Assembly: GCF_003337275.1 (NCBI RefSeq)
Contig: NZ_QPJQ01000015.1
Coordinates: 1-64,000 of the forward strand
Source of the DNA: Marinomonas foliarum
GTDB lineage: Bacteria > Pseudomonadota > Gammaproteobacteria > Pseudomonadales > Marinomonadaceae
Reading direction: 5' to 3'
DNA: 64,000 nucleotides
Position numbers and translations under genes: made by a program. The notes under the pieces were generated by a model. The model was not told the origin of the DNA and ran no database searches. It saw nothing but the letters and a program-made list of their open reading frames with translations. Position 1 is the first letter of the stretch, and every line of letters begins with the position of its first letter. Below are positions 2,567-47,430 of the stretch, piece by piece.

Positions 2567-4972
2567 TTAAGCTCTTGTTTCCTTGTTATTTAACGAGGCA
2601 ATAAGTTGCAAAATCTGATCTTCAGAATATTGCTGGCTATTGAATACTGGCAAATTACGTAATGGCATATCCGCCACCATGGACTCCGCCATCAGGCGAT
2701 CGGCTTGTGCCGCAGAGTCATTCTGATCGCCGCCCATCATTTGGGTAAATACAGAAAGCATGCTTTCAAACAGAGGCTTGCCTAATGGTTCGTTGGCAAT
2801 GTCACCCAAGGTTGAGTTCACCGTGTAAGGCTTAGTAGGAGTGGGGGCGGGAATGTCGTAACCTAATAACGCAGTGAATGCCGCGTCATTAAAATCACGT
2901 TTTGCAGGCTCGAAGTAGGTTTTTAATGCAGCAATGGGCTGTTTCTTTGCCACTTCCGTGTCTAAGGTAATATTGGCGGTATCGCGAATATCTTCTATAG
3001 AAGAGCCAATATGAATCTGATATTCATCGCTCTCAGCTATCCAAGATGATTGAGCTTCATCCCAATAGGCAAAGGCACGATAATCCAGCTCAAGCGCGAT
3101 TTCTTTGCTTTCACCTGGTTCTAAGAAAACCTTTTCGAAGGCTTTTAACTCTTTGGCTGGGCGAGGTAGAGAAGGGGATTTTTGCCCAACGTAACACTGT
3201 ACAACTTCCGCGCCGGCTGTATCGCCGGTGTTGGTGATAGTGATTTGTAGCCTAATAGCGTCATTTTCTTTAAATGGTGAGTGATCGCCACTTAGTAAGG
3301 TTAAATGGTAATAAGTGAAGCTCGTGTAAGACAAACCATGACCGAAAGGAAAAAGTGCTTTCGTGCTGGTGGTATCAAAATAGCGATAACCGACCCAAAT
3401 AGCCTCGCGGTATTGCACTTGTTTTGTGGTGCCTGGGAAATAAGGTTGGCTTGGTACATCGTCTAAATTTGCTGGGAAGGTTTCAGCCAATTTACCACTG
3501 GGGTTTACCTCGCCAGAAAGCACTTTAGCCACCGCTGAAGCACCGGCTTGTCCGCCTAGATAAGCTTCCAGTATGGCGGGTACCTTGTCGACAAATGGTA
3601 GAATCACAGGTGCGCCATTTTGCAGCACAACAAGGGTTTTATTGAGCTGTTCGCCAAGCTCAGCGATTAGGTCTAGTTGCACCTGTGGCAGATTTAAATG
3701 CTGACGATCAAAGCCTTCTGATTCGTATTTTGGCGTCAGTCCTGCAAACAAAAACACCACGTCTGCTTGTTTTGCTAATTCAATAGCTTTGGCGATTTCT
3801 GCCGCGTCTTCTTTATCATTGAGATGGTAGCCAGCAGTGTAACTGACATTATCGGCACCAAACTGTTTTTTGATTTCGTCGAGAGGTTGCTCTAGCTTGA
3901 ATGGATTAATCTTGGAGCTGCCCGCACCTTGGTAGCGAGTGTTGTTAGCTAATGCGCCAATAACAGCGATTTTCTTTCCTGCGGCAACTGGCAATAAACC
4001 ATCATTTTTTAACAGCACACAGGCTTCTCCCGCGATTCGCGCAGCGAGATCATGGTGAGCATTTAGGTCAGCTTTGACCTTATCGCTTTCTAAAGACGCT
4101 TGTGATTTCAGGATCAGTTCCAGCACGCGAGAAACAGATTTATCCAATGCTTCCATCGTTAGTTGACCGCTTTTAACGGCAGCAATGATCTTCTTGGTAT
4201 TCATATCGCCAGAGCTTGGCATTTCTAAATGCTGGCCATTCTTGACGCCTTCAACGCGGTCGTTATTGGCGCCCCAGTCAGTAACAATAATGCCTTCAAA
4301 GCCCCATTCTTTGACAAGAATGTCGTTGAGCAATTGCTTGTGCTCGGCAGCGTAGGTGCCGTTTACCTTGTTGTAAGAGCACATGACTGTCCAAGGTTGT
4401 GTCTGTTTAACGGCTCTTTCAAAGGCTGGTAGATAGATCTCGCGTAGGGTTCTTTGATCGACAATGGCATCGACCGTCATGCGGCAATGTTCATGATTGT
4501 TCACTGCGTAATGTTTTAAGCTGGTTCCCACGCCTTGGCTTTGTACGCCTTTGATCCAAGCGGCTGACATGTCGCCAGAGAGTAATGGGTCTTCAGAAAA
4601 GTATTCGAAATTGCGCCCGCCCAATGGGTTGCGTTTGATATTGGTTCCAGGGCCAAGTAATACAGAGACATCTTCAGCGCGACATTCTTTGCCTAGCGCG
4701 ACGCCCATTTCTTCAATCAGCTTGGTATTCCAAGATGCCGCAAGCCCCGATGCGGTAGGGAAACAGGTGGCTTTTACCGCTGCATTTAGACCGACATGAT
4801 CGCCTTCCCCGGATTGTTTACGCAGGCCATGTGGGCCATCTGTCACCATGATGGAGGGTAAATTTAAGCGTTCAATCCCATGTAGGTTCCAAAAATCCTT
4901 GCCGGTACAGAGCATGGCTTTTTCTTCTAGGGTTAGTTCGTCTAAGAGTTGTTTTATTTTTGTATCACTCAT
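2567..4972 (-). CDS. Glycoside hydrolase family 3 beta-glucosidase
   Basis: 801 residues without signal peptide, so probably cytoplasmic. The GH3 N-terminal barrel shows MVTDGPHGLRKQ near 42-53, KHYAVNNHE near 153-161 and the catalytic nucleophile motif IIVTDWGANND (Asp about 232). The second alpha/beta domain contains YESEGFDRQHLNLP, with a likely acid/base Glu. A fibronectin-III-like domain follows near 590-670 (CYVGQKSPSLPRPAKELK). About 110 extra residues at the C-terminus are unassigned. GH3 enzymes of this architecture hydrolyse beta-glucosides, sometimes xylosides. It is downstream of the TetR gene with a short gap and upstream of a GPH symporter, giving an import-then-cleave route. 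The exact sugar cannot be read from sequence. Confidence 0.9.
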   Translation of the reverse strand: MSDTKIKQLLDELTLEEKAMLCTGKDFWNLHGIERLNLPSIMVTDGPHGLRKQSGEGDHVGLNAAVKATCFPTASGLAASWNTKLIEEMGVALGKECRAEDVSVLLGPGTNIKRNPLGGRNFEYFSEDPLLSGDMSAAWIKGVQSQGVGTSLKHYAVNNHEHCRMTVDAIVDQRTLREIYLPAFERAVKQTQPWTVMCSYNKVNGTYAAEHKQLLNDILVKEWGFEGIIVTDWGANNDRVEGVKNGQHLEMPSSGDMNTKKIIAAVKSGQLTMEALDKSVSRVLELILKSQASLESDKVKADLNAHHDLAARIAGEACVLLKNDGLLPVAAGKKIAVIGALANNTRYQGAGSSKINPFKLEQPLDEIKKQFGADNVSYTAGYHLNDKEDAAEIAKAIELAKQADVVFLFAGLTPKYESEGFDRQHLNLPQVQLDLIAELGEQLNKTLVVLQNGAPVILPFVDKVPAILEAYLGGQAGASAVAKVLSGEVNPSGKLAETFPANLDDVPSQPYFPGTTKQVQYREAIWVGYRYFDTTSTKALFPFGHGLSYTSFTYYHLTLLSGDHSPFKENDAIRLQITITNTGDTAGAEVVQCYVGQKSPSLPRPAKELKAFEKVFLEPGESKEIALELDYRAFAYWDEAQSSWIAESDEYQIHIGSSIEDIRDTANITLDTEVAKKQPIAALKTYFEPAKRDFNDAAFTALLGYDIPAPTPTKPYTVNSTLGDIANEPLGKPLFESMLSVFTQMMGGDQNDSAAQADRLMAESMVADMPLRNLPVFNSQQYSEDQILQLIASLNNKETRA

Positions 4973-4985
4973 CGTTTCATCCTTA

Positions 4986-5639
4986 TTAGATTTGTGGCGA
5001 TGGCTTCAGACCATCGAGTAGTAGCTGGATTAACACAGGGGTAAGTTGTGGAATGGCCTCTTGTTCAATTTCCATCAAGGCGTCTCGGCGTAGCAGCATA
5101 CGACGGAAAAAAGTTGGGACGCTGTTAAATAGTGTGACCGCCAAATAGGACGCGGGGACGTCAGCGCGAATGCTGCCTTCTGCTTGCCCTAGGGAGACAA
5201 TGTCTGTGAGAGATTTGCTGACTGTATCGGGTAATAGTTGGGTCAGTTTATCTCGAAACTCGGTGGGGATACGTGATCCAGCGTAGTAACCATCAAATTC
5301 CGCGATGAAGCGGTCATCGTCTGCATATTGGACATCAGAATACGCTTGCATTAGGACACCAAGCCCTTCGAGAACATTGGAAAAATGACGCGCTTTAATT
5401 TTGTCTATGATGCCTTCATATACACCGATTTTGCGGGTAAGAACCACCACTAGAATAGAAAAGCCCAAATCGTATTTGTCTTGGTAATAGCGATATAAGG
5501 TATTACGGCTCATGCCAGTGGCCGCCGCAATGTCTTTCATTTGAGTATCGGCAAAGCCATTTTCGATAAAAAGAGCTTCCGCAATAGTGATAATTTTGTT
5601 CCGAGTGGCCTCGGTTTGGTGAACCATTCTCGTCGTCAT
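4986..5639 (-). CDS. TetR/AcrR-family transcriptional regulator
   Basis: The N-terminal helix-turn-helix is clear: IITIAEALFIENGF followed by MKDIAAATGMSRNTLYRYYQDK. The C-terminal ligand-binding part is diverged, as is normal in this family. The frame extends upstream to 5699, but those 20 residues precede the usual N-terminus; ATG at 5639 (MTTRMVHQT) fits better, though no strong Shine-Dalgarno is seen and ATG 5627 is an alternative. It is 13 bp upstream of the glucosidase gene and probably co-transcribed with it and the symporter, so it likely controls this sugar cluster. It is separated from the upstream gss gene by a good terminator. Confidence 0.85.
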   Translation of the reverse strand: MTTRMVHQTEATRNKIITIAEALFIENGFADTQMKDIAAATGMSRNTLYRYYQDKYDLGFSILVVVLTRKIGVYEGIIDKIKARHFSNVLEGLGVLMQAYSDVQYADDDRFIAEFDGYYAGSRIPTEFRDKLTQLLPDTVSKSLTDIVSLGQAEGSIRADVPASYLAVTLFNSVPTFFRRMLLRRDALMEIEQEAIPQLTPVLIQLLLDGLKPSPQI

Positions 5640-5711
5640 AATAAATGTTACACGTGTTATATTTTTTATTAATCTAAGAGGTGGTGGGTTTTTAGTCAAT
5701 CATTAGTTACC

Positions 5712-5750
5712 AAAAAAAAGCCTTTGCTCCATCGTCTGAGGCAAAGGCTT
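5712..5750 (-). terminator. Rho-independent terminator of gss
   Basis: 10-bp perfect stem (5718-5727 and 5741-5750) followed, on the - strand, by a run of eight U residues. It ends the gss transcript before the TetR gene. Confidence 0.85.
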
Positions 5751-5796
5751 CTATATAAAAACAATTAAAATCAATAGTTTGAGATGGAACTAATGG

Positions 5797-7674
5797 TCAT
5801 TCAATGACTCGCAAAGCCATTAAATCACTGTCTTTGGTGATGACCAAGGTCGGATCAACGCGCAAGCAGCTGCCAGCGTAGTGCCCCGCTACCGAAAAAG
5901 TACACACCTGTGAGCGATAACCTTCAATATCAGGTAGCTTCCATAAGGCTTGGAAAATTTGATCTTGATGGGCAAAACGCCCAGCGGTCTCTTCCATTAA
6001 GTCGTCTTCACCGTCGTACAGGCTAATGTTAAAACCACAACGCCCAGCGATAGGTTTACTCACGTAACCGTTGGTTTTTAATGCATCGCTTAATTCAAAT
6101 GACGATTCCAATAAATAGGGATGGTCTGGAAAAAGCAGCCATAAAACCGGTAAAATCGCTTTATTACTGGGAATAAGCGTCCAAAGTGGTTCATAGACCA
6201 TTACGTCTTTACGCAATAAAACGTCGACTAAACGTGGTGCCTCACTACGAGGTGCATCGGTTTTGTAGTCGCGAAGGCGTTGTTCATCGTCATCGCATTC
6301 GGTACGGATTTGATCCAGTGCCGTTTCCCACGCCCAGGTTTTCCATACCCAACGGATTTTGACACCGTCAGCATCGACTACATCACCGTCTTCGTCCCAA
6401 CGCAGGCTACTGACACCCTTGATGACTTTGCAATCGAGCCTTGCTTTTTCCATGGTACGTTTCATGAAAAGCGCGTGGTAATTCTCTTCTAAGTCTGTAT
6501 CCTGCATGATGTGAATCACGCCTTTTACCGCACTGTTTTTCCACGCTTCGATCAATTCATCGACTAATTCTGTCGCAGAACCTTCACCTTCCGCTACGCC
6601 ATAATGCGTGGCCCATTTGTCTTGAATGATGCCCGCTTCCATGTAGCAAGAGGCTGAGTCGCAGTTGTATTCGTATACCTTGATTCCATTAGCTGACAGA
6701 CTGAAATCAAAGCGTCCGGTGATCATCTGGTTACGACGGTTATCCCAAGATTGGTGAATCTTCGGCCATAAAGCTGGAGGAATATTAAAGCTAGAAAGCA
6801 GGTCATCGTTTTGCAGCACATAATCCGTAGCGTGCATAAACAAGGCGTGCAACTCATTGGTGGCGCGCTTTAGTTCTCGTTCAGCGGTTTCTGTCATCAC
6901 CATGTATTTGTAGTCGTCTTCCGGTCGGCTGGCGAGTTTGTGTCCGCCCATCATGTCGACAAAGGCTTCTTCCGCTGGATTCGCGACATTTAACCAAGCG
7001 CGAGAAGCTTGGCCTTTGTTTGGTACATGGCGAATTTGTAAATCAAACAACGCTGGGTCGTCTGGTTCAATATTTTCTGCGTGCAGGTCATCTTCAGTTT
7101 GGATGACCCAACCCATAATGGACGCATCGCCATAGGAGCAACGCAGCCAATAACCACCATCTTTGCTGATACGCGCATCAAGCACGCGAGAGTAATCTTG
7201 GCCTTCTTCCCACACTTGATGGCCGACGTTTTGTTCGACCAAGTACAAGCGATCTGGCAACACTTTAGTGACAATAGCCACATGCCCTGTTACTTCAAAT
7301 TCACCGCCTTCGTTCCAAATTAAAAGAGCACCGACTTCAGGATGACGTAACGAGCCATTGCGAAAGGATTTCAGTGGCAAGCGGCTCTCATCTGTAATGA
7401 GCCGAGCTGACGTTAGACGAAAAATATCATAGGCCATAGCAACATCATCAAAGATATAGCCTTTATTTAGATACAACCAACGACGGGCAAACTCCACGCA
7501 TTGCCACTTGTACCCCATGAAAATTCCATCGACATAGCTGCGATAAGCATGGCGGTTAGGTAACTCATTATCATCGGCGGAATCATAGTCGGAAGAGTAA
7601 ACTGGCACATTGCCTGGCGCTATACCTAACAGGGTGCCAAAAGGCGCGATTGGCCTGCTGGAGTCAGATGTCAT
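5797..7674 (-). CDS. gss: Bifunctional glutathionylspermidine synthetase/amidase
   Basis: The N-terminal CHAP amidase domain has the catalytic cysteine in GYKWQCVEFARRW. With ATG 7674 as start this is Cys59, exactly the number in the E. coli enzyme as I recall it. That start also has a GAGGGAA ribosome site, so the 36 upstream in-frame residues are excluded. The C-terminal ATP-grasp-like synthetase domain carries MITGRFDFS, VYEYNCDSASC, VHIMQD-like (IHIMQDTDLEENYHA), VWKTWAWETA, EPLWTLIPSNKAILP and KPIAGRCGFNI. The enzyme joins glutathione to spermidine with ATP and also hydrolyses the product. It is cytosolic and linked to thiol redox and polyamine homeostasis. Length 625 residues is close to the E. 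coli protein. Monocistronic, with its own terminator. Confidence 0.96.
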   Translation of the reverse strand: MTSDSSRPIAPFGTLLGIAPGNVPVYSSDYDSADDNELPNRHAYRSYVDGIFMGYKWQCVEFARRWLYLNKGYIFDDVAMAYDIFRLTSARLITDESRLPLKSFRNGSLRHPEVGALLIWNEGGEFEVTGHVAIVTKVLPDRLYLVEQNVGHQVWEEGQDYSRVLDARISKDGGYWLRCSYGDASIMGWVIQTEDDLHAENIEPDDPALFDLQIRHVPNKGQASRAWLNVANPAEEAFVDMMGGHKLASRPEDDYKYMVMTETAERELKRATNELHALFMHATDYVLQNDDLLSSFNIPPALWPKIHQSWDNRRNQMITGRFDFSLSANGIKVYEYNCDSASCYMEAGIIQDKWATHYGVAEGEGSATELVDELIEAWKNSAVKGVIHIMQDTDLEENYHALFMKRTMEKARLDCKVIKGVSSLRWDEDGDVVDADGVKIRWVWKTWAWETALDQIRTECDDDEQRLRDYKTDAPRSEAPRLVDVLLRKDVMVYEPLWTLIPSNKAILPVLWLLFPDHPYLLESSFELSDALKTNGYVSKPIAGRCGFNISLYDGEDDLMEETAGRFAHQDQIFQALWKLPDIEGYRSQVCTFSVAGHYAGSCLRVDPTLVITKDSDLMALRVIE

Positions 7675-24353: not shown

Positions 24354-26456
24354 TTATACTTTTAACTTCGACAAAATGTTGGTTAATTGATTCACTGCTT
24401 CCACACTATTCTTATGGCCGGACGATAAGCTGGAGACCACGTCGCGTAATTCCTGTGCAGCATCACTGATGATTACAAGGTTACGATTAATCTCTTCTGC
24501 TACGTTAGACTGCTCTGTGGCGGCAGAAGCTACTTGTGAGGAATTCTCGGAAATAGTCACTACGCGATCGTTAACAAAACCTAATTTCTCTGCGCTGTTG
24601 TTGGCCACGGTTACTGTTTCGCTGATGTTAGATTGACTGTTGTTTATCAAGTTTACTGCGGAGCCGACGTCTTCTTGTAGAGCTTTTATAAGGGTGTCGA
24701 CTTCCTCTGTGGAGTCTTGTGTACGTGCCGCGAGACTACGCACTTCGTCCGCTACGACAGCGAATCCTCTGCCTTGCTCACCTGCGCGGGCGGCTTCTAT
24801 TGCAGCATTCAAGGCCAACAAATTGGTTTGCTCTGCGATAGCACGAATGGTGTCTAAAATGCTGTAAATTGCGTCGCTGCGTTCAGAGACTTTAGCTACT
24901 TGAGTGCTGGCTTCGTTCAGTTCAGAGGCAAAATGTTCTACTTGGCTGCGGTTGTGCTGTACTAAGTCTAATGATTCTTTAAGATAACCGCTCATTTCAT
25001 TAGTGGCATTGCCATTTTCTTGAGCTAAGTTTGCCACATCAAAAGCAGAGCTCGACATCTCTGTTACAGCGGTCACAACGGACTGAATTTGATCAGTTTG
25101 CGATGAAATAGACGAGTCGACTTGTATGGTGGTATCAACAAAGCTTTCATTGGAATGTGCCACGACATGGCGCTGTTCATTGAGTTGTTGAACCATTTTT
25201 TGCAATTTTTCAGTAAACAGATTAAAACCATCGGCAAGCTGTACCAATTCGAGATGTTTTTGTTGCCCCAGGCGTTGCGTTAAATCGCCTTCTTCAGAAG
25301 CCAGCTCCTTCATACGTGACGCGATATCACCCAATGGTGCGGTTACAGAACGTACTATTAGATAAATAACCCCTAACCCAATGAATACCAAAATCAATGA
25401 AAGTCCGAGTAAAATCGTTACGGCATTGTTGGTTTTAGCATTTAGTCCAGCGTTTAACTTTATGGATGGCGCAAGTAAAACGCTAGTCGGAACAGACAAG
25501 AATACAGTCCAGTTTTGAGCCGCGTGTCCAATGGCAAAATCACTGGTAAATGTCCACTCTAACTCTCCTTCAACCAATCCTTTTTTCGTAAGATCCACAC
25601 CAGATAACGGAGTCGATTTTATGTTATTGCCTACCGCTTTGGGGAATGCACTGGAACCCACGATAATGCCACGTTGGCTAACAATAGTAATCTGCCCTTG
25701 ACCATCGAATAGGTTTTGAGCCAAAGAAGTGACTTCGGTTTGAATCTTCGGCAAATTGACATCCGCACCGACCAAGCCGACAGACTTTTTGTTGACCAAG
25801 ACGGGTTCGGTGTAACTGGTCATAAGAACACTATTGCCCTCTGATATTTCATATAGATAAGGATCGAGTAAGCAGGCATTAGCAGATTCTAGAGAGCATA
25901 AATACCATTCAGATTCACGAATACCATTGTCGTCTACTTCGGTGCCGTACTTCTCTGCAGACTCTGTTTCGTAAGAAACAAATTGCCCTTCTTCTTTCAC
26001 CCAATATACATCTAAGGTTCCAACATCTGATGTCGTGAGCGTGTTCTTTGGCGACGTGCTGTCTAATTGGTCGTAACCGTTTTTTTCAAATTGAGCATAC
26101 AAAGCACTCATGGTTGGCGTGCTTTTTACAAAGCCTTTTGTCATCGCGTGAACACGCTCACGGCTGAATGGTTCGCCGCTGTTTCCTATGGCTGTTTGAG
26201 TGAGCAGTGAGGCGAAGTTGGTCACCGTCGAAGCGGTGGATTCGAGGAACACTCGAACCTTAGTTTGTGCTTCATTAGCCGTGGACATTAGTAAGGTTTC
26301 TGCTTGGTCTTTTTGAACTTGACTTAGTTCATCTGATGCGAATTCATTGATTGAACGGATGGATTGAGTAGAGGCCAAAATCACAATACCTACTAGACAC
26401 ATGGCAAAAAAGCCAACGAGGAAAACAAGCTTTACTCTTATACTAAGATTCGACAT
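24354..26456 (-). CDS. Methyl-accepting chemotaxis protein with periplasmic dCache sensor
   Basis: 700 residues. One membrane helix near 10-30; a large periplasmic domain of about 300 residues of the double-Cache type ([38 protein letters not shown]); second membrane helix near 345-370; HAMP; and a cytoplasmic signalling tip with [21 protein letters not shown]-type hairpin (seen as [20 protein letters not shown]). Two periplasmic cysteines in [17 protein letters not shown] could form a disulfide. No C-terminal CheR-tether pentapeptide is seen. dCache receptors commonly sense amino acids or other small ligands; ligand unknown. Monocistronic. Confidence 0.93.
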
Positions 26457-26762: not shown

Positions 26763-26773
26763 TTAATGGCTCG
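26747..26773 (-). terminator. Weak terminator at the end of the radical SAM gene
   Basis: 5-bp stem CGAGC/GCTCG spans the stop codon and is followed on the - strand by five Us. Confidence 0.45.
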
Positions 26774-28691
26774 CAATGACATTGTTAATAGCTTTTGAAA
26801 TTAGGTCTTTTTTCACCAATGTGCTTTTCACTGGTTTATCAAACCAGAAGTCCATTGGCTGATCAAAGCCGATGCCGTGCATGTAATTGTAGAGTGCTTT
26901 ACGCAGTCCGTCGCCTAACATGTCGTGATCGGTTCCCGTTGGATCGGTGAAGTCCACATCGTTTTCTGCGAACAAAATATCAGGGCGCTCTACGAGAGTG
27001 ATGCCATATTCATCCGGGTTAATACCAATTGGGCTGTGTGCTGTGGCGGCGAATCTATGCCAGAAAGCCGATTGAAAACAGCCTTGCGCCATCATCTGAC
27101 GCACCATGTCTAAAGCGTCTATGGTTTCTTGCTCAGTTTGTGTCGGGAAGCCATACATCAAATAAGAATGCACCAGAATATCCGCATCACTGAAGGCTTT
27201 GGTTACGCGAGCGACTTGTTCGACGCTCACGCCTTTTTTCATTAGTTTTAGCAATCGATCAGATGCTACTTCAAGCCCGCCACTTACCGCGATACAACCA
27301 GAATCCGCCAATAACTGACAGCGCTCTGGTGTGAAGGTTTTTTCAAAACGAATATTGCCCCACCAACTGATCACCACGCCGCGTTCGATTAGGCGTCTTG
27401 CTAAGGCAAACAAGGCTTTTGGCGGAGCGGCTTCGTCGACAAAATGGAAACCTGTTTGTCCGGTTTCTGCGATCAATTCTTCAATACGGTCCACCAATAT
27501 ATCGGCACCTGCCGCATCGTAGCGATCGATGTAATCCAGTGTCACGTCACAGAAACTGCATTTGCGCCAGTAACAGCCGTGGGCAATGGTGAGCTTGTTC
27601 CAGCGGCCATCACTCCAGATTCGGTGCATCGGATTGAGCATTTCACACAGGGACAAGTATTCGGTTAACGGCAAACCGTCGTAAATCGGTGTGCCGACAT
27701 CAGTTTGCGGGATATCGTAAAGCTCGGCGTTTTCATTGTAGTGAACGAATGGCTCGCCATTTTCGTCTTCAGCGAGGAAGTAAGTACGCACTAACTCGTC
27801 GATTTCACGCTTTCCGTCAAAGAATTCCAGCAAGGTCATAAAAGGACGTTCGCCATCATCAAGGCAGAGGAAATCGACAAACTCAAACACGCGAGGGTCT
27901 TTCAGTGCACGTAGCTCGGTGTTAATAAAACCACCGCCCAATACCACAGGAAGATCGGGATTAATGCTTTTACAAGTTTGCGCAATACGCAGTGCGCCGA
28001 GCATATTACCGGGGAAAGGCACGGTTAATGCCACGACGCTGGGTTGCGTTTCTTCCAGATATTGCTCGACCAATTGCTCGAGGATTTCTGAACTGAAGCT
28101 CGGTTCGCCCATCAGCGTATTGTAGAGATCGTCAAAACTTGGGTTAGCTGCCGCTAGACGCTCGCCATAGCGACTGACTTCAAAGTACGGATCGACGCCT
28201 TGAGTAATCACAGCCGACAAGTCATTAATAAACAAAGTGGCCAGATATTTGGCTTTGTCTTGCACGCCAAGCTGGCCAAAGGCGGTTTTTAAAATGTCGC
28301 CTGACACGGCTTCCATCTGTTCTATAGCATCAAACGCAGGGCCTTCAGGTAAAAAACGGCGGGATGTAATACGCAGTGCAAGGCTAGAATCTTTACCTTG
28401 TAAAAAACGAATCACAGGTTCAACGCAAAGGCGATAACGATCAAACTCCGCTAAGAAGCTAAATACGGCATCAGGCAGCTCGTCGTCTTCAAATGACTCG
28501 AAGTTGTCTTCCACATGCTGGCGGATAATATCCAGCGCAGGGGCTGTCATCATCTCTAAGAATAACTCAATGGCAGGGTCTCGCTGCACCGCCTCATAGC
28601 CCCGAGAGCGCAAAAAGCCCGTCAAATACGCCGTTGCTGGGTAGGGCGTATTTAATTGCGTCATGGGTGGAGTCATCAGAAGAACGGTCAT
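26763..28691 (-). CDS. B12-binding-type radical SAM protein
   Basis: 642 residues. The N-terminal half includes a cobalamin-binding-like Rossmann domain (QPSVVALTVPFPGNMLGALRIA..., PVVLGGGF, VDFLCLDDGERP). The radical SAM domain starts near 370 with cluster cysteines in HGCYWRKCSFC. Their spacing is CX4CX2C rather than the canonical CX3CX2C. FVDEAAPP, WWGNIRFEK and SGGLEVASDRLLKLMKKGV are further SAM-barrel elements. The reaction is unknown; relatives methylate or rearrange unreactive carbons or act in natural-product pathways. No candidate partner gene is adjacent. Ribosome site AAAGG precedes ATG. A partial copy of its 5' end is at 30364-30689. Confidence 0.85.
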   Translation of the reverse strand: MTVLLMTPPMTQLNTPYPATAYLTGFLRSRGYEAVQRDPAIELFLEMMTAPALDIIRQHVEDNFESFEDDELPDAVFSFLAEFDRYRLCVEPVIRFLQGKDSSLALRITSRRFLPEGPAFDAIEQMEAVSGDILKTAFGQLGVQDKAKYLATLFINDLSAVITQGVDPYFEVSRYGERLAAANPSFDDLYNTLMGEPSFSSEILEQLVEQYLEETQPSVVALTVPFPGNMLGALRIAQTCKSINPDLPVVLGGGFINTELRALKDPRVFEFVDFLCLDDGERPFMTLLEFFDGKREIDELVRTYFLAEDENGEPFVHYNENAELYDIPQTDVGTPIYDGLPLTEYLSLCEMLNPMHRIWSDGRWNKLTIAHGCYWRKCSFCDVTLDYIDRYDAAGADILVDRIEELIAETGQTGFHFVDEAAPPKALFALARRLIERGVVISWWGNIRFEKTFTPERCQLLADSGCIAVSGGLEVASDRLLKLMKKGVSVEQVARVTKAFSDADILVHSYLMYGFPTQTEQETIDALDMVRQMMAQGCFQSAFWHRFAATAHSPIGINPDEYGITLVERPDILFAENDVDFTDPTGTDHDMLGDGLRKALYNYMHGIGFDQPMDFWFDKPVKSTLVKKDLISKAINNVIASH

Positions 28692-28738
28692 AGCCTGCCT
28701 TTAAAGTAAAACCTAATCGGAATAGGCGGATTCTAGCA
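28314..28738 (-). repeat. Direct repeat A: native 5' end and leader of the radical SAM gene
   Basis: Matches 30364-30689 in the same orientation. In copy A the segment is intact: codons 1 to about 126 of the radical SAM gene plus 47 bp of leader. It ends exactly at the T of an extended -10 element (TGCTAGAAT). See copy B for differences. Confidence 0.9.
28730..28738 (-). promoter_or_regulatory. Extended -10 promoter element of the radical SAM gene
   Basis: On the - strand TGCTAGAAT matches the TGnTATAAT extended -10 pattern 39 bp upstream of the ATG. The same element is retained at 30681-30689 in the repeat copy. Confidence 0.45.
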
Positions 28739-28840
28739 TTTAAAAAGAGTTCCAACCTTTTTTAAATGCTGTTTTTCTAGCTGTTCTTTAGTTCAAGGAT
28801 TATGAATTAAGACGTTTTCTAATGAAGGTAGAATTGGGGC

Positions 28841-28876
28841 TGCCCATAGCGGCATGTTGATACTATGGGCATTTTT
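28841..28876 (+). terminator. Terminator facing the + strand, with no + strand gene upstream
   Basis: 9-bp perfect stem TGCCCATAG/CTATGGGCA (28841-28849 and 28863-28871) followed by five Ts. Both neighbouring genes are on the - strand, so it may be a leftover of a lost + strand gene, or just a 3' hairpin of the hydrolase mRNA. Confidence 0.55.
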
Positions 28877-28892
28877 CAGAAACTATTTTTTT

Positions 28893-29813
28893 TTAATTTT
28901 TATTCATTGTGTTGTTAATAAAATTAATTATATCGTTGTTAAATCGAGTGCTTTCTTCAAAAAATGGAGAGTGTCCTGAGTTTTCATATATTTTGCTCTG
29001 ACTAGTAGAATTAAGCTCTTTAACTCTCTTTAGAGATGCGTTGGGGTTAACCAAAGCATCATGAGCGCCATAAATTAAAAGAAAAGGTTTGGTTAGCTTG
29101 CCTAGGCCATTCACAACATCCACATTCATACTTGGAACGGTTTTTTGCATGTTAAAAGATGCTGTCGCAGCATTGGCCAATAAAAGCTCAAAAGTCTCGG
29201 TATCAGGTTGTGTATTAAAGCATAAGCGTATGAAGTGACGTTCAGCTTCAAGATGTGTTTTTAGGTCTTCATCTGCCATACCACTATAAGTCTTTGGATG
29301 AGGTGTGATTTGTCCAGCCGCTAACTCAATCACTCCACCAACATACATAACACCCGCGATATGAGAGTCGCCATAGGTTGCTAAATAGCTACTGATGACA
29401 GATCCCCCTAGAGACCAGCCAACTAATATTGGCTTTTGTGGTGATGTGGTTTTAACCGACTCAATCACTGCGGCTAAATCATCGCCCCATAAACGACCAT
29501 TTTGATATGATTCGATTGCCTCAGGTTGATCAGATAATCCATGACCACGAAGATCAAATGTAATTAAACGGTTTTTTGCCAGCTGAGGGTCATTAATTTG
29601 CGAACTCCAGCTTAAATGGCTGCCAAGCAGACCGTGAACAAAAATGATAGGTATTCCTTCTGGAGCCCCAGATTCTTGTACAGCAAGAGATACGCCATCG
29701 GCAGAAACCACTTTATAATTCTGATCACTAGCGAAAGCCAATGGAGTAAAAAACATTAAGAAAAACGAGTAGAGTAAGCTACTCAAAGCGAGCTTACGTG
29801 CGATTTTTATCAT
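28893..29813 (-). CDS. Secreted alpha/beta hydrolase
   Basis: 306 residues with a clear signal peptide (hydrophobic core about 9-27, cleavage near FASDQ), so probably periplasmic. Alpha/beta-hydrolase landmarks: oxyanion HGLLGSHLSW, LRGHGLSDQP, nucleophile elbow VGWSLGGS, acid in YGAHDALV, and catalytic His in NSGHSPFFE. Substrate unknown; the family includes esterases, lactonases and haloperoxidases. Ribosome site AAGGA is 8 nt before ATG. Divergent from a MerR gene with a MerR-type promoter between them, so expression is probably induced through that regulator. The 3' part is AT-rich. The pair lies between direct repeats, a sign of acquisition. Confidence 0.85.
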   Translation of the reverse strand: MIKIARKLALSSLLYSFFLMFFTPLAFASDQNYKVVSADGVSLAVQESGAPEGIPIIFVHGLLGSHLSWSSQINDPQLAKNRLITFDLRGHGLSDQPEAIESYQNGRLWGDDLAAVIESVKTTSPQKPILVGWSLGGSVISSYLATYGDSHIAGVMYVGGVIELAAGQITPHPKTYSGMADEDLKTHLEAERHFIRLCFNTQPDTETFELLLANAATASFNMQKTVPSMNVDVVNGLGKLTKPFLLIYGAHDALVNPNASLKRVKELNSTSQSKIYENSGHSPFFEESTRFNNDIINFINNTMNKN

Positions 29814-29845
29814 AAGATATATCCTTAGTTTAAGATTAAAAACGC

Positions 29846-29877
29846 AGTCTAAACCCTAACACTAATGTGAGAGTCAA
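29846..29877 (-). promoter_or_regulatory. MerR-type promoter driving the hydrolase gene
   Basis: On the - strand, -35 TTGACT (29872-29877) and -10 TAGACT (29846-29851) are separated by 20 bp. This over-long spacer is the hallmark of MerR-activated promoters. The dyad CTAACAC-TAAT-GTGAGAG (29856-29873, 5 of 7 pairs matched) is nearly centred in the spacer. The -10 is 33 bp from the hydrolase ATG. Confidence 0.7.
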
Positions 29878-29896
29878 CGTAAAATTTGAGTATTCT

Positions 29897-30298
29897 ATGC
29901 AAAACAGAAAACCAACAGGAACGATCACTATTGGCAATTTAGCTAAGCGATCAGGTGTCAGTGTGAGATCTATTCGACACTATGAAGAAGAGGGCGTATT
30001 AACATGCTATCGTGGAGATAATGGCTATCGTTTTTTTTCGATAGAAGCGATTACTCAGGTAAGGCAAATTCAGCGTTTGATTTCTTTTGGTTTCAATCTC
30101 AAAGATATACGTACTTTCCCCGAATGCATGAGACTAGTAGAAGGCGCTGAATTTTGTGAAGAAACACTCAGCGCTCAACAGTCACTGCTACAATCTATCG
30201 ATCATCAAATAGAGACATTAGAAGAGCGTAAATATCAGCTACTGAAAACGATGTCAGAGAACATTTCCCAAGCATCATCGGTTATAGATGAAAGGTAA
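29897..30298 (+). CDS. MerR-family transcriptional activator
   Basis: 133 residues from ATG 29897 (MQNRKPTGTITIGNLAKRSG). Winged HTH: TIGNLAKRSGVSVRSIRHYEEEGVL then RGDNGYRFFS. The linker helix is IRQ-type (QIQRLISFGFNLKDI), followed by a dimerisation coiled coil near 95-125. A single Cys (GAEFCEE) makes metal sensing unlikely but not excluded. Related small regulators sense drugs, oxidants or organic ligands. It is divergent from the hydrolase, whose promoter has the MerR architecture. An alternative GTG/TTG start upstream to 29867 would overlap the promoter and is not favoured. Confidence 0.88.
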   Translation: MQNRKPTGTITIGNLAKRSGVSVRSIRHYEEEGVLTCYRGDNGYRFFSIEAITQVRQIQRLISFGFNLKDIRTFPECMRLVEGAEFCEETLSAQQSLLQSIDHQIETLEERKYQLLKTMSENISQASSVIDER

Positions 30299-30363
30299 TA
30301 GTTGTATAGATTAGGATTTACAGTGTTGTCGAACGGAAAGCATAATAGTCAACAAGTAGCTCG

Positions 30364-30689
30364 CATCTGTTCTATAGCATCAAACGCAGGGCCTTCAGGT
30401 AAAAAACGGCGGGATGTAATACGCAGTGCAAGGCTGGAATCTTTACCTTGTAAAAAACGAATAACCGGTTCAACGCAAAGGCGATAACGATCAAACTCCG
30501 CTAAGAAGCTAAATACGGCATCAGGCAGCTCGTCGTCTTCAAATGATTCAAAATTGTCTTCTACGTGCTGGCGGATAATATCCAGCGCAGGGGCTGTCAT
30601 CATCTCTAAGAATAACTCAATGGCCTCGCTGCACCGCCTCATAGCCTGCCTTTAAAGTAAAACCTAATCGGAATAGGCGGATTCTAGCA
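30364..30689 (-). pseudogene. Direct repeat B: truncated copy of the radical SAM 5' end
   Basis: Aligns to 28314-28738. It has eight substitutions, all synonymous, so 87 encoded residues are identical (AIELFLEMM to FDAIEQM). Two deletions are present: 5 bp, and 94 bp between two TCATAGCC repeats that join just inside the start codon. Together they remove 99 bp, restoring frame. The original start codon, ribosome site and extended -10 are retained, so a 97-residue peptide could still be made (30349-30642), ending a few residues past the repeat junction. It lacks the radical SAM domain. Most likely an inert recombination scar. Confidence 0.88.
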
Positions 30690-30700
30690 AATGACCTGCA

Positions 30701-30724
30701 CAAAAGCCCCGTGAATTCGGGGCT
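30701..30724 (-). terminator. Terminator of the glycerate kinase gene
   Basis: 7-bp stem AGCCCCG/CGGGGCT (30705-30711 and 30718-30724), four Us follow on the - strand. Confidence 0.7.
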
Positions 30725-30748
30725 GGTGCCCGTTTATATTAGATAATA

Positions 30749-31879
30749 CTAGCGAATAATGGCAATTATCACATCCATGACATTGGTATTTGTTGGGCCA
30801 GTAATAAAGATCGCATCCTGTTCACGCAAGTAGGTCCCTGCGTCAGCGCGTTTCAATGCATCTCGAACCGCGTGCATATCTTTTGCTGTTGAGCCATCTA
30901 CAATACCGCCAGCTGCGTCGGTTGGACCATCACTGCCGTCAGTGCCGGCAACCAGCACCAATATGTTATCGCGACCAACGATGTTTTCTGCAATGCCTAG
31001 TGCTAGCGCTTGGTTACGGCCACCGTTGCCGGGGTTTTCGGGTAGCTTAACCGTTGGCTCTCCGCCAAAAATGTACACACCCGGTTCGGCATCCATTAGT
31101 TGCTGACCAATATAAGAAGACAGTATTTCAACATCGTCATACAGGTTTTCTGTATTTTCGATAACGTGATAGCCAAGCTCTGTTGCTTTGTTGGCCGCTG
31201 CTTCTCGGGCGACTTGGTTGGTACCAATTAAGGCAACGCTGGCAGCCGATGGACAGCGTTTAATTGACCCAGTGCCAGAGCCAATGGTACCAATGTCATC
31301 GCCTTCCACGTCGGAAATAGCCAGTACGCGGACGTCAGCACCTTTAAATTTTTCGAGTAACTTACCGTCTTTGACCAAAGAGGTTTCTTTGCGGCGGGTA
31401 TTGATCTGACCAATATTATAGCCAGCTGCAAGCATTTGATCTGTTAGCTTTTGCCAGTCTTCCAAGCTGACATCGTCAGGCAGAGCTTCAGATAAAGCCG
31501 ATGCGCCACCAGAGACTAAAAGAAGTAATTTACTACCTGCTTGCATGTCTGTGACCGTAGAGAGTATTTGCTTGCCAGCGTCCAATGAGTGTTGATCTGG
31601 AACAGGATGAGCTGACTCAAGAACCGTTACGTTGGTTGCATTCCACATAGTTTGGTCTGTGTGATCGTACTTTGTGACTAATAACGCAGGGCAATCGTTA
31701 CCTAGTGCCGCTAAGGCACCTGCACACATGCCACTGGCTGCTTTACCGACGGCTATGATTTGATCTGGCGTGAAGTCAGTAAAGCTTTCTACTGCACGGT
31801 ACGTTGCATTGTAGCCAGCCACCGCATTGATCGCAGCGTCAAAAATAGACACAGCAGAGTTTTTATCATGTGAATGCAA
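30749..31879 (-). CDS. Glycerate 2-kinase (GckA/TtuD, MOFRL family)
   Basis: 376 residues. The N-terminal DUF4147 domain has IAVGKAASGM, ESAHPVPDQHS and LLVSGGASALSEALP. The C-terminal MOFRL domain has GGEPTVKLPENPGNGGRNQALAL and AGTDGSDGPTDAAGGIVDG. These enzymes phosphorylate D-glycerate to 2-phosphoglycerate, feeding glycolysis. It lies downstream of a hydroxyacid dehydrogenase fusion gene that could make or use hydroxypyruvate/glycerate, but a bidirectional terminator separates them, so it has its own promoter. Slightly short compared with the family's usual 400-440 residues. Confidence 0.9.
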   Translation of the reverse strand: MHSHDKNSAVSIFDAAINAVAGYNATYRAVESFTDFTPDQIIAVGKAASGMCAGALAALGNDCPALLVTKYDHTDQTMWNATNVTVLESAHPVPDQHSLDAGKQILSTVTDMQAGSKLLLLVSGGASALSEALPDDVSLEDWQKLTDQMLAAGYNIGQINTRRKETSLVKDGKLLEKFKGADVRVLAISDVEGDDIGTIGSGTGSIKRCPSAASVALIGTNQVAREAAANKATELGYHVIENTENLYDDVEILSSYIGQQLMDAEPGVYIFGGEPTVKLPENPGNGGRNQALALGIAENIVGRDNILVLVAGTDGSDGPTDAAGGIVDGSTAKDMHAVRDALKRADAGTYLREQDAIFITGPTNTNVMDVIIAIIR

Positions 31880-43787: not shown

Positions 43788-43866
43788 AAAAGGGGTCAGA
43801 TCCCTTAAAAATAAAGCCAATGTTAGTTGCAGCTTGATTTGGTGTTTAAGGGATCTGACCCCTTTT
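43788..43866. repeat. RAYT-associated palindrome, copy 1
   Basis: 22-bp perfect arms (43788-43809 and 43845-43866) around a 35-nt loop; arms contain GGGGTCAGATCCC and its complement. The last codons and stop of the RAYT gene lie inside the right arm. Near-identical to the copy at 44577-44654. Confidence 0.92.
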
Positions 43867-44544
43867 AGAGGGGCGGCCTCGATGGTCTTGACCGACTCTT
43901 TGTCTTAGTTGAGTTTCGACCTTCTCTTTAAAGTGGTTGTCGCCAAGAGGCGTGCCTGTTTGCCAAGCTGACTGTATTTTTGATAATTCTCTAGTATCAA
44001 GGTGCTGTTCAAACAGTCGTATGTAGTTTTGTATTCTTTCTTCGATATTACGGCCAAGGGCATTATAGACAGAATGAGCGGTGATAAACGAAAGCTGTTT
44101 AAATCCGCCGTTGTGATGAAAGCTAGACCACCGATACAAACCTGGGTAATCGACCATATTAGCTCTAACGGGGTTAAGTTCAATGTAGCGCATGACAGCC
44201 AAGAAATAACGGTCTGATTGGACTAAACTACTTTTAAACCTTCCCTCCCAAAGGGAGCCACTACGTCCATATTTATGATTTATAAAAGGGACATAACGTC
44301 GACCAATATGTTGCATAAACTGACTGACACCAGCTCCAGATTGAGCAGTCAACAGGATATGAACATGATTAGTCATTAAAACAAAAGCATGAATAGCCAC
44401 ATCGTGTTTGATGGCGGCTTCTTTCATCCAGAAAGCATAGGCTTTGTAATCTTCATCCTCAAAGAAAACGGGATCGCGAGAAGCGCCGCGCTGAACGATA
44501 TGTACCGGAACATTTGGTAAAAAGAAACGAGGCTTTCTTGGCAT
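43846..44544 (-). CDS. REP-associated tyrosine transposase (RAYT), apparently intact
   Basis: 232 residues, Y1/HUH family as in IS200/IS605 TnpA. N-terminal start PRKPRFFLPNVPVHIVQRG; metal-binding HUH in MTNHVHILLTA; catalytic tyrosine block RYIELNPVRANM; then YRWSSFHHN and a basic C-terminus. A consensus AGGAGG lies 5 nt before ATG. It is flanked on both sides by copies of a long palindrome, the presumed substrate. The C-terminal KRGQIP is encoded by the palindrome itself. RAYTs are single-copy domesticated transposases that mobilise or maintain REP sequences. Inserted between the porin and polA. Confidence 0.93.
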   Translation of the reverse strand: MPRKPRFFLPNVPVHIVQRGASRDPVFFEDEDYKAYAFWMKEAAIKHDVAIHAFVLMTNHVHILLTAQSGAGVSQFMQHIGRRYVPFINHKYGRSGSLWEGRFKSSLVQSDRYFLAVMRYIELNPVRANMVDYPGLYRWSSFHHNGGFKQLSFITAHSVYNALGRNIEERIQNYIRLFEQHLDTRELSKIQSAWQTGTPLGDNHFKEKVETQLRQRVGQDHRGRPSKRGQIP

Positions 44545-44576: not shown

Positions 44577-44654
44577 AAAGGGGTCAGATCCCTTAAAAAT
44601 AATGCCAACATTAGTTATAACCTGATTTGGCGTTTAAGGGATCTGACCCCTTTT
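44577..44654. repeat. RAYT-associated palindrome, copy 2
   Basis: 21-bp perfect arms (44577-44597 and 44633-44653), loop of 35 nt with an inner GCCAA/TTGGC pairing. Same orientation as copy 1, about 790 bp away. Its right edge touches the U-tract of the polA terminator. Confidence 0.92.
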
Positions 44655-44675
44655 AAAAAGGCGCTTAATGCGCCT
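44655..44675 (-). terminator. polA terminator overlapping the stop codon
   Basis: On the - strand AGGCGC-ATTAA-GCGCCT followed by Us; the polA stop codon is in the loop. RAYT palindrome copy 2 begins directly after the U-tract. Confidence 0.75.
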
Positions 44676-47430
44676 CGTCCCAGTTGTCTCCAACTCCCGC
44701 CTCTACCAACAGCGGTACATCAATCTGACTACTATTCTGCATGATGTCGACGATTTTTGCTTGGGCTTTTTCTAGGTCTTTTTCGGCGACTTCGAAGATG
44801 AGTTCATCGTGTACTTGCATGATCATTTTTACGTCTAGGTCGGTGTCGGCTAGCCAGTCGTGCATTTTGATCATGGCGCGTTTGATGATGTCGGCGGCGG
44901 AGCCTTGCATCGGGGCGTTGATCGCGGTGCGTTCGGCGGCTTGGCGCATCATGGCGTTTTTCGCTTTGATGTCTGGCAGGTACAAGCGGCGGCCGTAGAT
45001 GGTTTCCACGTAGCCTTTTTCTTTCGCGCCTTCGCGGGTGTTTTCCATGTATTGTTGCACGCCTGGGTAACGTTCGAAGTAGCGTTTGATGTATTTTCCT
45101 GCTTCTGGGCGACCAATGCCAAGCTGTTTCGCTAGACCAAAGGCCGACATGCCGTAGATCAAGCCGAAGTTGATGGCTTTGGCGCGGCGGCGCTGTTCTG
45201 TGGTGACTTCGTCTAGGCTGACCTCGAAGACTTCTGCTGCGGTGGCTTTGTGTACGTCGGCGTCTTTTGTGAAAGCGTCTAATAAGCCCGGATCTTGGGA
45301 CAGGTGAGCCATGATGCGTAATTCGACTTGCGAGTAATCGGCCGCGACTAACTTGTAGCCTTTAGGCGCGACAAAAGCTTGGCGAATACGACGACCTTCG
45401 GTAGAGCGAATCGGGATGTTCTGCAAGTTCGGATCCGTCGACGACAAACGGCCTGTCGCGGTAATCGCTTGATGGTACGAGGTATGAATACGGCCTGTTT
45501 TCTGGATCATTTCTGGCAGTTTGTCGGTGTATGTGGATTTCAATTTCGACAGGCTGCGGTGTTCCATGATCAAACGTGGCAGTTCGTAGTCTTGCGCCAG
45601 TTCTTGCAAGATTGGCTCGGCAGTAGAAGGCTGACCTTTGGGTGTTTTCTTGATAACCGGCAAGCCTTGTTTTTCGAACAAGATGACTTGTAGCTGTTTT
45701 GGCGAGCTTAGGTTGAAGCTTTCGCCCGCTTGTTCGTGGGCTTTGATTTCCAGTTCTTGCAGTTTGCCTGCAATTTCGCTGCTTTGCAGGTGCAGGAGTT
45801 CTGGGTCGATCAAGGCGCCAGTTTGTTCCATTTTCGCCAATACTGGAATCAATGGGCATTCGATGTCTTTAAAAATGCTGACGAGTTCTGGCGTGGTTTC
45901 GATTTTCGGCCAAATCGCTTGGTGCAAACGTAAGGTGATGTCGGCGTCTTCCGCGGCGTAGAAAGCGGCCACTTCTAGACCGATTTGGTTAAAGGTTTTT
46001 TGTTTCGCGCCTTTGCCAGCAATGTCTTCAAAGCTCACGTTGGTGTGACCAAGGAATTTGCTCGCCAAGGTGTCCATGTCGTGACGTGAACTTACGGAGT
46101 TGTAAACGTAAGATTCCAACATGGTGTCGTAAGCGATGCCGCGCAAGGTGATGTCGTAGTTGTTGAGCACGTTGGCGTCGTATTTTAGGTGTTGGCCGAC
46201 TTTGGCTTTGCTGTCGTCTTCGAGCCAAGGTTTTAGCTGTTCCAGCACCCAATCGCGGTCCAGTTGTTCTGGTGCGCCTTCGTAATCGTGAGCCACTGGA
46301 ACGTAAGCCGCTTCGCCCACTTCTACCGAGAAGGACAAGCCAACCAGTTCCGCAGCCATGTAGTTGAGGGAAGTGGTTTCTGTATCGAAGGCAACCAGTT
46401 CAGCGGCTTGGATTTTTTCCAACCATTTGTTGAAGCTTGCTTTGTCTAAGACGGTGTCGTAGTTGGCTTCGATGTTGGATTTAACCGGTGTTTCCACTTG
46501 GCCGTCATTACCAACGGTATCGCTGGCGGTTTCTACGCTTGGCGCTTTGTCTAGGTCAGACAACCAAGTTTTGAATTCCAGCTTGGTGAACCATTCACGC
46601 AGCTTTTCTTTGTCGGCTTCGCCGTTTTTCAATTCTTGTGGTTCGAAAGGCAGTTCTACGTCGCATTTGATGGTCGCCAAGGTGTAAGACAACTCTGCCA
46701 TTTCTTTGTTGTCTTCCATTTTTTGCTTCATGGTTTTGGAACCACGGAAGCCCAACGCAGCGATCTCGTCTAAGCGGGTGTAGATGTCTTTGATGCTGCC
46801 CAAACCTTGCAGCAAGGCAAGGGCGGTTTTTTCGCCCACGCCCGGTACGCCTGGAATGTTATCGACTTTGTCGCCCATGAGTGCGAGGTAATCGATGATC
46901 AGTTCAGGCGGAATGCCGAACTTGTCTTTCACCCCTTGGATGTCCATAACCGTGTTGTTCATGGTGTTCACTAGAGTGACTTTGTCATTGACCAACTGCG
47001 CCATGTCTTTATCGCCCGTGGAAACAACGACTTCGCGGCCGGCTTCGCCCACTTGTTTGGCGATGGTGCCGATGACGTCGTCGGCTTCTACGTTATCTAT
47101 GATCACCAGCGGCAAGCCCATGGCTTCCACCACACGGTGAATGGGTTCGATTTGCGGGCGTAGGTCGTCAGGCATGGGCGGGCGTTGCGCTTTGTATTCG
47201 CTGTAGATCTCGTCGCGGAAGGTTTTGCCCTTGGCGTCGAAGATGATGACCATGGGGGAATCTGGGTAGGTTTTAATGAGGCTGCGGATCATGCTGATCA
47301 CACCGCGCGTGGCGTTGGTCGGTTGGCCATCGCTGGTGTGCATAGGTGGAATCGCGTGGAATGCTCGGTAAAGGTAAGACGAGCCGTCTACCAAGATCAT
47401 CGGTGTTTGTGTCGTAGAATCCGTAGCCAA
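44665..47430 (-). CDS. polA: DNA polymerase I
   Basis: 921 residues, all three domains. 5'-3' exonuclease (1 to about 290): MILVDGSSYLYRAFHAIPP, VEADDVIGT, GDKVDNIPGVPGVGEKTA. Proofreading exonuclease: AFDTETTSL, KYDANVL and YAAEDADI keep the metal-binding acids, so it should be active. Polymerase: motif A AADYSQVELRIMAHLS, motif B RRAKAINFGLIYGMS, motif C QVHDELIFEV. Start is TTG 47430 with GAGG 7 nt upstream; the next Met is at the core strand MILVDGSS and would trim the normal N-terminus. It fills Okazaki gaps and acts in repair. Confidence 0.97.
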   Translation of the reverse strand: MATDSTTQTPMILVDGSSYLYRAFHAIPPMHTSDGQPTNATRGVISMIRSLIKTYPDSPMVIIFDAKGKTFRDEIYSEYKAQRPPMPDDLRPQIEPIHRVVEAMGLPLVIIDNVEADDVIGTIAKQVGEAGREVVVSTGDKDMAQLVNDKVTLVNTMNNTVMDIQGVKDKFGIPPELIIDYLALMGDKVDNIPGVPGVGEKTALALLQGLGSIKDIYTRLDEIAALGFRGSKTMKQKMEDNKEMAELSYTLATIKCDVELPFEPQELKNGEADKEKLREWFTKLEFKTWLSDLDKAPSVETASDTVGNDGQVETPVKSNIEANYDTVLDKASFNKWLEKIQAAELVAFDTETTSLNYMAAELVGLSFSVEVGEAAYVPVAHDYEGAPEQLDRDWVLEQLKPWLEDDSKAKVGQHLKYDANVLNNYDITLRGIAYDTMLESYVYNSVSSRHDMDTLASKFLGHTNVSFEDIAGKGAKQKTFNQIGLEVAAFYAAEDADITLRLHQAIWPKIETTPELVSIFKDIECPLIPVLAKMEQTGALIDPELLHLQSSEIAGKLQELEIKAHEQAGESFNLSSPKQLQVILFEKQGLPVIKKTPKGQPSTAEPILQELAQDYELPRLIMEHRSLSKLKSTYTDKLPEMIQKTGRIHTSYHQAITATGRLSSTDPNLQNIPIRSTEGRRIRQAFVAPKGYKLVAADYSQVELRIMAHLSQDPGLLDAFTKDADVHKATAAEVFEVSLDEVTTEQRRRAKAINFGLIYGMSAFGLAKQLGIGRPEAGKYIKRYFERYPGVQQYMENTREGAKEKGYVETIYGRRLYLPDIKAKNAMMRQAAERTAINAPMQGSAADIIKRAMIKMHDWLADTDLDVKMIMQVHDELIFEVAEKDLEKAQAKIVDIMQNSSQIDVPLLVEAGVGDNWDEAH

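Follow-up and report, generated by a model that had tools for sequence, protein, structure and literature searches.

Several described routes bring new genes into a bacterial chromosome and leave a duplicated stretch of it behind. Insertion with long target duplication (Nobusato et al. 2000) is often linked to restriction-modification genes, according to passages of PMC3031569 and PMC1643837. In Escherichia coli, linear DNA has been reported to be circularised by ligation and then integrated by a single crossover (PMC3240628), and one-sided integration of linear DNA has been proposed for Vibrio cholerae modules in a part of PMC5361080 that calls it rare. Here we describe a locus in 64,000 nucleotides (nt) of Marinomonas foliarum DNA (contig NZ_QPJQ01000015.1, positions 1 to 64,000; hereafter the window, to whose numbering coordinates refer), in which a divergent hydrolase–merR gene pair lies between an intact radical SAM gene and a relic of that gene's 5′ end. 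The two copies of the 5′ end, A and B, carry two different inherited flanks: two haplotypes have merged. We consider it probable that a single homologous exchange and one end-joining combined two versions of the same stretch of chromosome. Most gene gains leave no trace of their entry; here two haplotypes, a joint and a relic survive, and the event is therefore readable.

The direct repeat and its flanks

The locus comprises the following features.

26763–28691, minus strand: intact radical SAM gene, a 642-amino-acid (aa) open reading frame (ORF) read leftward, the 5′ end of which is copy A
28314–28738, minus strand: copy A, 425 nt, with 378 nt of 5′ coding sequence and 47 nt upstream, up to TTCTAGCA
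28739–28778, unstranded: flank outside copy A, resembling one of two flank types in other Marinomonas (A type; 11 of the 34 relatives scored, p ≤ 0.01)
28739–30363, unstranded: unique insert, 1,625 nt, 38.3% G+C against a 45.0% median of 1,625-nt windows
28893–29813, minus strand: alpha/beta hydrolase gene, 306 aa (Pfam Abhydrolase_1, E 1.7e-26)
29846–29877, minus strand: conserved element 5′ of the hydrolase gene, with TTGACT, a 20-nt spacer containing ACATTAGTGT and a weak second hexamer, TAGACT
29867–30298, plus strand: MerR-family regulator gene (Pfam MerR_1, E 5.7e-16), divergent from the hydrolase gene
30363–30364, unstranded: new joint, at which the sequence after merR is fused to radical SAM coding position 378
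30364–30689, minus strand: copy B, 326 nt, a relic of the radical SAM 5′ end with internal deletions of 5 nt and 94 nt
30690–30730, minus strand: flank outside copy B (B type) with a terminator hairpin, joined directly to radical SAM in relatives G032 and G001
30749–31879, minus strand: glycerate kinase type gene (DUF4147/MOFRL), taken as the resident neighbour

Copies A and B lie in the same orientation and form a partial direct repeat, as described in an earlier note on this DNA. Their length difference of 99 nt corresponds to the two deletions inside B, the larger of which is flanked by two TCATAGCC octamers and removed the start codon and first codons. Neither deletion is present in 39 aligned relative loci; these retain both stretches, and the deletions are therefore assigned to B. 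Over the shared coding stretch, A and B are identical at 253 of 261 positions, and none of the eight substitutions alters an amino acid in the radical SAM frame, again as the earlier note had it. The expected synonymous fraction of random changes in this stretch is 0.217, which gives a probability of about 5e-6 for eight out of eight; with transitions weighted fourfold the fraction is 0.283 and the probability about 4e-5. The claim drawn from this, that B had not diverged as a pseudogene, holds for its substitutions, which are synonymous only, yet B has decayed through its deletions.

The deletions leave a 97-codon open frame with a new ATG in copy B (30349–30642), which is not taken for a gene. 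Copy B also retains the radical SAM upstream region (30643–30689), and any promoter within it would transcribe through the relic, antisense to merR. The radical SAM product matches Pfam Radical_SAM, with a B12-binding match slightly under the curated cut-off; its best NCBIfam matches, TIGR04479 and TIGR03975, are both far under theirs.

In the window (40 nt, 80% identity, E 1e-6, 15 kb), one more direct repeat was detected besides A and B (87 nt, 43789/44577). In 400 kb of the same genome's other stretches (60 nt, 85%), two direct repeats of 84 and 79 nt and none above 100 nt were found, in a scan cut into 20-kb stretches that would miss border-spanning repeats.

The radical SAM gene was found by a genus DNA search in 40 of 48 genomes, the window's own included, and the neighbourhoods of the 39 relatives were compared over up to 20 kb each. 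The earlier note had predicted an empty site, with radical SAM directly beside glycerate kinase, and this arrangement was found in two of the 39 loci, those of G032 and G001. There, TTCTAGCA upstream of the radical SAM gene is followed directly by AATGACCT and the glycerate kinase terminator hairpin, the same sequence that lies outside copy B, which places B on the native glycerate kinase side as the note proposed. In two further genomes (G038 and G039), glycerate kinase lies on the right with other ORFs intervening.

For each relative, we then set the 40 nt past its TTCTAGCA-type anchor against the 40-nt flanks outside A and B, using 1,000 mononucleotide shuffles. The anchor (TTCTAGCA or a close variant) is absent from 5 of the 39 loci, leaving 34 scored. 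At p ≤ 0.01 (uncorrected, the relatives not being independent), 11 relatives match the A type, 8 the B type, none both and 15 neither. Among the A-type relatives, mtgA was found as the next gene in five, glycerate kinase lies further right in G038, and the right side of G030 covers only 155 nt. Glycerate kinase lies on the right in three of the B-type relatives, with none within the fetched stretch in the other five. The flanks outside A and B thus each resemble a different Marinomonas flank type, hence the merger of two haplotypes. The repeat ends at TTCTAGCA without a breakpoint because the haplotypes stop being alike there, and the presence of two inherited flanks leaves 30363/30364 as the sole new joint.

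The outer flanks make it possible to tell merged alleles from a plain duplication, and the presence of two inherited flanks counts against duplication within one strain. Such a duplication followed by insertion is scarcely credible: A's outer flank is known in other species, and a dead copy would not diverge by eight synonymous changes out of eight. It is also very improbable that a longer tandem duplication arose first and that a later deletion, trimming the second radical SAM copy, made the joint at 30364. The two other deletions in B make a third at its end easy, but this course needs an extra step and has left no trace of the lost part. An assembly artefact can be set aside with near certainty, as the copies differ by eight substitutions and two deletions inside one 85.6-kb contig of a genome with a rated completeness of 100% and a contamination of 0.05%.

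Course, direction and source of the proposed merger

One exchange and one end-joining, with a single new joint, suffice for the merger. The resident chromosome would have had radical SAM directly downstream of glycerate kinase, and the donor fragment would have carried the radical SAM 5′ end, the donor lineage's different upstream flank and, beyond it, hydrolase–merR. The two ends of the fragment, one in mid radical SAM and one just past merR, would have been joined, most simply by ligation to a circle; one crossover within the 5′ region of radical SAM would then have inserted the joined fragment into the chromosome. The intact gene (copy A) would in this way have gained the donor upstream side with hydrolase–merR; the resident 5′ piece would have stayed by glycerate kinase as copy B, to be decayed by deletions afterwards. 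The arrangement is what a single crossover gives, in line with the topology suggested in the earlier note. A circular donor is plausible, the most economical version being a linear fragment ligated to a circle and then integrated by a single crossover. One-sided linear integration would give the same structure.

That alternative, homology-facilitated illegitimate recombination (HFIR), involves no circle: the radical SAM end of a linear fragment would pair and its merR end would be joined illegitimately to the sister chromosome. We regard it as unlikely here, although it predicts the same anatomy, with one homologous side and one illegitimate joint, and a mirror-image relic in G017 (see below) fits it equally well. 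The process is documented for competent bacteria and E. coli (PMC3240628), and part of PMC5361080 proposes it for V. cholerae effector-immunity modules, with displaced pieces kept. However, retaining the duplicate demands a join to the sister copy, which is an extra step. Short microhomology at the joint is usual in HFIR, and the joint at 30363/30364 has no shared base directly to its left, the side on which it could be compared.

For either course, the side of the locus that was resident can be approached through its left neighbours, which were covered over 1–3 kb in the relatives. Of the five relatives with an MFS gene no more than about 2.3 kb to the left, four have glycerate kinase right of radical SAM; none of the 34 others does (Fisher p 6e-5, relatedness ignored). 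The window carries an MFS gene (Pfam MFS_1) left of radical SAM, and for this reason we treat copy B and glycerate kinase as the resident side, which is the likely direction. In the reverse direction, radical SAM followed by hydrolase–merR and no glycerate kinase would be resident. The newcomer would be a block of glycerate kinase and dehydrogenase genes with copy B attached, brought in by an exchange in mtgA or farther out and by end-joining at 30364. The A flank type is widespread in the genus, and several distant species have the glycerate kinase block elsewhere than beside radical SAM, as this order of events would have it. Against it, the hydrolase–merR pair is absent from the 47 other genomes and A+T-rich and so looks like the newcomer, the MFS association favours a resident glycerate kinase, and the overall identity of the glycerate kinase block to any species sampled does not exceed 88%, so that no recent import from these species is visible. 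We therefore hold the reverse direction to be distinctly improbable.

Between MFS and radical SAM, the window has a chemotaxis receptor gene (Pfam MCPsignal, 24354–26456) at a position that is vacant in G032 and G001; in G019, a 74% relative adjoins radical SAM and is oppositely oriented. Along 20001–47600, identity to the nearest species varies as a mosaic from about 75% to 97%, which suggests frequent recombination in the genus. This sliding comparison did not settle the direction of the event.

The source of the second allele appears to be close. The next best match of A or B to any relative is 230/261 (B with G032), and A groups with B (split support 85) in a tree built from the shared 261 nt; some pairs from different genomes are almost as close over that stretch (G016 and G034, 249/261). 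Since A and B are mutually nearest, we infer a donor that was conspecific or a near-sister Marinomonas. The earlier view of B as an allele from a related lineage is borne out by the different flank types and the synonymous differences; the tree comparison suggested with it went the other way, as the grouping of A and B counts against a donor among the sampled species. The B state at each of the eight sites occurs in 3 to 25 of the 39 relatives, and polarising the differences gave both states spread across the genus.

Several observations weigh against the merger as we reconstruct it, or against its direction. The MFS criterion was picked after the data had been seen and ignores kinship, and in G017 an MFS gene on the left is not accompanied by glycerate kinase. 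The flank types, though real, do not follow glycerate kinase strictly. In the tree, A and B are each other's closest neighbours, and no genome was found with radical SAM beside this hydrolase–merR pair. Finally, the eight differences are clustered in a stretch of 130 nt (p 0.015 among third positions; p 0.0008 with the noncoding part included), which a plain merger does not predict; the clustering hints at patchy exchange, and the simplest model does not explain it.

The hydrolase–merR insert

The insert is A+T-rich; 6 of 312 insert-sized sliding windows, some overlapping the insert itself, are as low in G+C. The hydrolase is predicted from its sequence to have a GWSLG motif and a signal-like N-terminus. 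The merR frame opens at GTG 29867, and ATG 29897 is the likelier start. The conserved element at 29846–29877, TTGAC(T/C)CT(C/G)ACA with GTGT in the 20-nt spacer, occurs in all six loci compared (the window and L131–L135); a plain promoter scan places it first in four of the six, the second hexamer being weak. A long spacer with the operator inside is typical of MerR-activated promoters, and we read the element as a putative MerR-type promoter/operator. The hydrolase–merR pair looks like a self-contained regulated cassette.

The pair recurs as a divergent module. When hydrolase matches were opened irrespective of merR (L131, L134, L135 and L136), three of four had a divergent merR adjoining; the fourth, at 33% identity, had no neighbouring merR. 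L132 and L133 were chosen via their merR and left out of this count. Plasmids gave hydrolase matches in 240 records, all below 60% identity (54.9–58.5% in the 20 listed). Ten of these 20 records are also among the 20 listed for MerR, which is adjacent and divergent in each.

A close source was found in none of the collections searched. The 47 other genus genomes hold no close homologue of the pair (best matches E 2.8e-9 for the hydrolase and E 7.6e-14 for MerR) and no DNA match to 28735–28900; neither the hydrolase 3′ flank nor the 65 nt that follow merR has a match in the 39 relative loci (E 0.01). A protein-level search for the donor found none in genome contigs. Across 390 genomes of the order, with up to five candidates scored per genome, there are matches at E ≤ 1e-40 in at least three besides its own (best 51% identity), and across 369 genomes of the class there is none at E ≤ 1e-60 except its own. 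No close hydrolase relative was found in the plasmid or phage records, nor any in viral contigs by a pattern-based search that detects near relatives only. Judged by titles and abstract starts, we found no description of a MerR–hydrolase pair in the papers listed.

No transposase, integrase or short target duplication was found at the insert ends, and Pfam gives only the hydrolase and MerR; restriction-modification genes are likewise absent from the insert. The repeats that bound it are hundreds of bases long. With no recombinase gene and no short target duplication, insertion by a site-specific element or transposon has a negligible chance of being correct, and phage cargo was rejected because no relative was found in phage records or, in the search limited to near relatives, in viral contigs. 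Under the merger proposed above, one exchange in a shared gene would have brought in a regulated cassette without a recognisable mobile element.

Other gene-end relics and known kinds of integration

A second radical SAM relic, of the 3′ end, is present in G017 at C1:414844–414926 (L237 3845–3927). It matches the window gene over 85 nt at 83.5% and the G017 gene over 76 nt at 86.8%. It lies about 4.5 kb from the intact gene, to the left of a block of a LysR-family gene, an MFS gene and a 632-aa ORF that separates the two, and so forms the mirror image of the window scar; the sequence left of it adjoins the intact radical SAM end in G034 (55-nt match). Self-comparison of the 39 neighbourhoods gave no second radical SAM piece (at least 40 nt, 80%), the G017 relic lying outside its stretch, and a whole-genome search gave, among the matches listed, one further match of 36 nt, in G037.

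With polA (44665–47430) as query, extra matches to the 3′ coding end were found in 20 of the 46 relatives with polA, among the matches listed, two of them only 41 nt long. These copies (L242–L261, 20 relatives) all lie downstream of polA within 7.4 kb, mostly with at least one ORF between, and their neighbours are mostly genes of phage-defence type. Examples are:

L245, 2210–3224: region downstream of polA with a 3′-end copy
L243, 4877–5892: region downstream of polA with a 3′-end copy
L244 (reverse complement), 4113–6516: region downstream of polA with a 3′-end copy

Of 22 polA stubs counted, 13 begin at or near ATGCACGACTGG: ten at 200–215 nt from the stop and three internally shortened, with the motif about 24 nt before; the other nine start elsewhere. 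Such a fixed start across different cargo may reflect shared descent or the action of a site-specific enzyme. The same 216-aa cargo is joined to the stub at the same base, 201 nt from the stop, in G039, G034 and G047 (second slot), and the sequence past the stub differs among the three, as the integration of one circular cassette would give. In G038, polA is directly followed by what follows the stub in G034, which corresponds to the pre-insertion state.

The 216-aa family (at least 74% identity) occurs in five genomes, always downstream of polA, with five weaker matches elsewhere. An AbiD-like 328-aa family (at least 45%) adjoins polA in eight of nine genomes, against none of eight at 36% or less; three of those eight (G026, G033 and G019, the last two by the genus search alone) have no stub, which argues against a stub for every cargo. 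Eight of ten polA cargo or neighbour proteins scanned match PADLOC models (AbiD, SIR2/Argonaute-linked, PDC-S15, methylase, PDC-M55 and dGTPase) and two match none. Divergence of the polA 3′ end exceeds that of the gene body in close pairs, not in distant pairs. The genus polA search gave no 3′ stub for the window's own polA among the matches listed, and the titles and abstract starts of the papers listed held nothing on point about polA as an integration site. Directly downstream of the window polA sits an IS200-like Y1 transposase gene (43846–44544) with 87-nt direct repeats (87%; 43789–43875 and 44577–44663) around it.

The polA relics are a lead and not part of the main finding. Marinomonas cassettes might travel with a core-gene stub as a homologous landing pad, each integration leaving a gene-end relic; hydrolase–merR with its radical SAM 5′ stub would then be such a cassette at a second gene, and the G017 3′ relic a third case. 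We offer this generalisation tentatively and think it rather doubtful. If gene-end relics do mark a recurrent route, as polA suggests, gene gain by this route, including that of defence genes, would become countable and testable.

The event at the radical SAM gene fits the known kinds of integration, as a new example of insertion with long target duplication and of Campbell or HFIR integration. With the first it shares a module between long direct target copies (here 425 and 326 nt) and a single-copy empty site in relatives (G032 and G001); it differs in carrying a hydrolase and a MerR regulator in place of restriction-modification genes, and in that the outer flank types of the copies differ, which makes them alleles and not a duplicated target. 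The same-orientation repeats with the insert between them, the resident flank on the truncated copy and the intact copy joined to the insert are as in Campbell-type integration, including that of ligation-circularised linear DNA (PMC3240628), whereas here no circular donor was seen, the repeat is short and B has decayed. HFIR and transformation merodiploids, as portrayed in parts of PMC5361080 and PMC3784515, likewise have one homologous anchor, one illegitimate or alternative join and a native piece that is kept; the merodiploids quoted from PMC3784515 are repeat-driven duplications, of 107.4 kb in the quoted case, whereas the duplication here spans a few hundred bases. Compared with these systems, the scar is ordinary in kind and unusually well preserved, and the wider pattern is worth testing.

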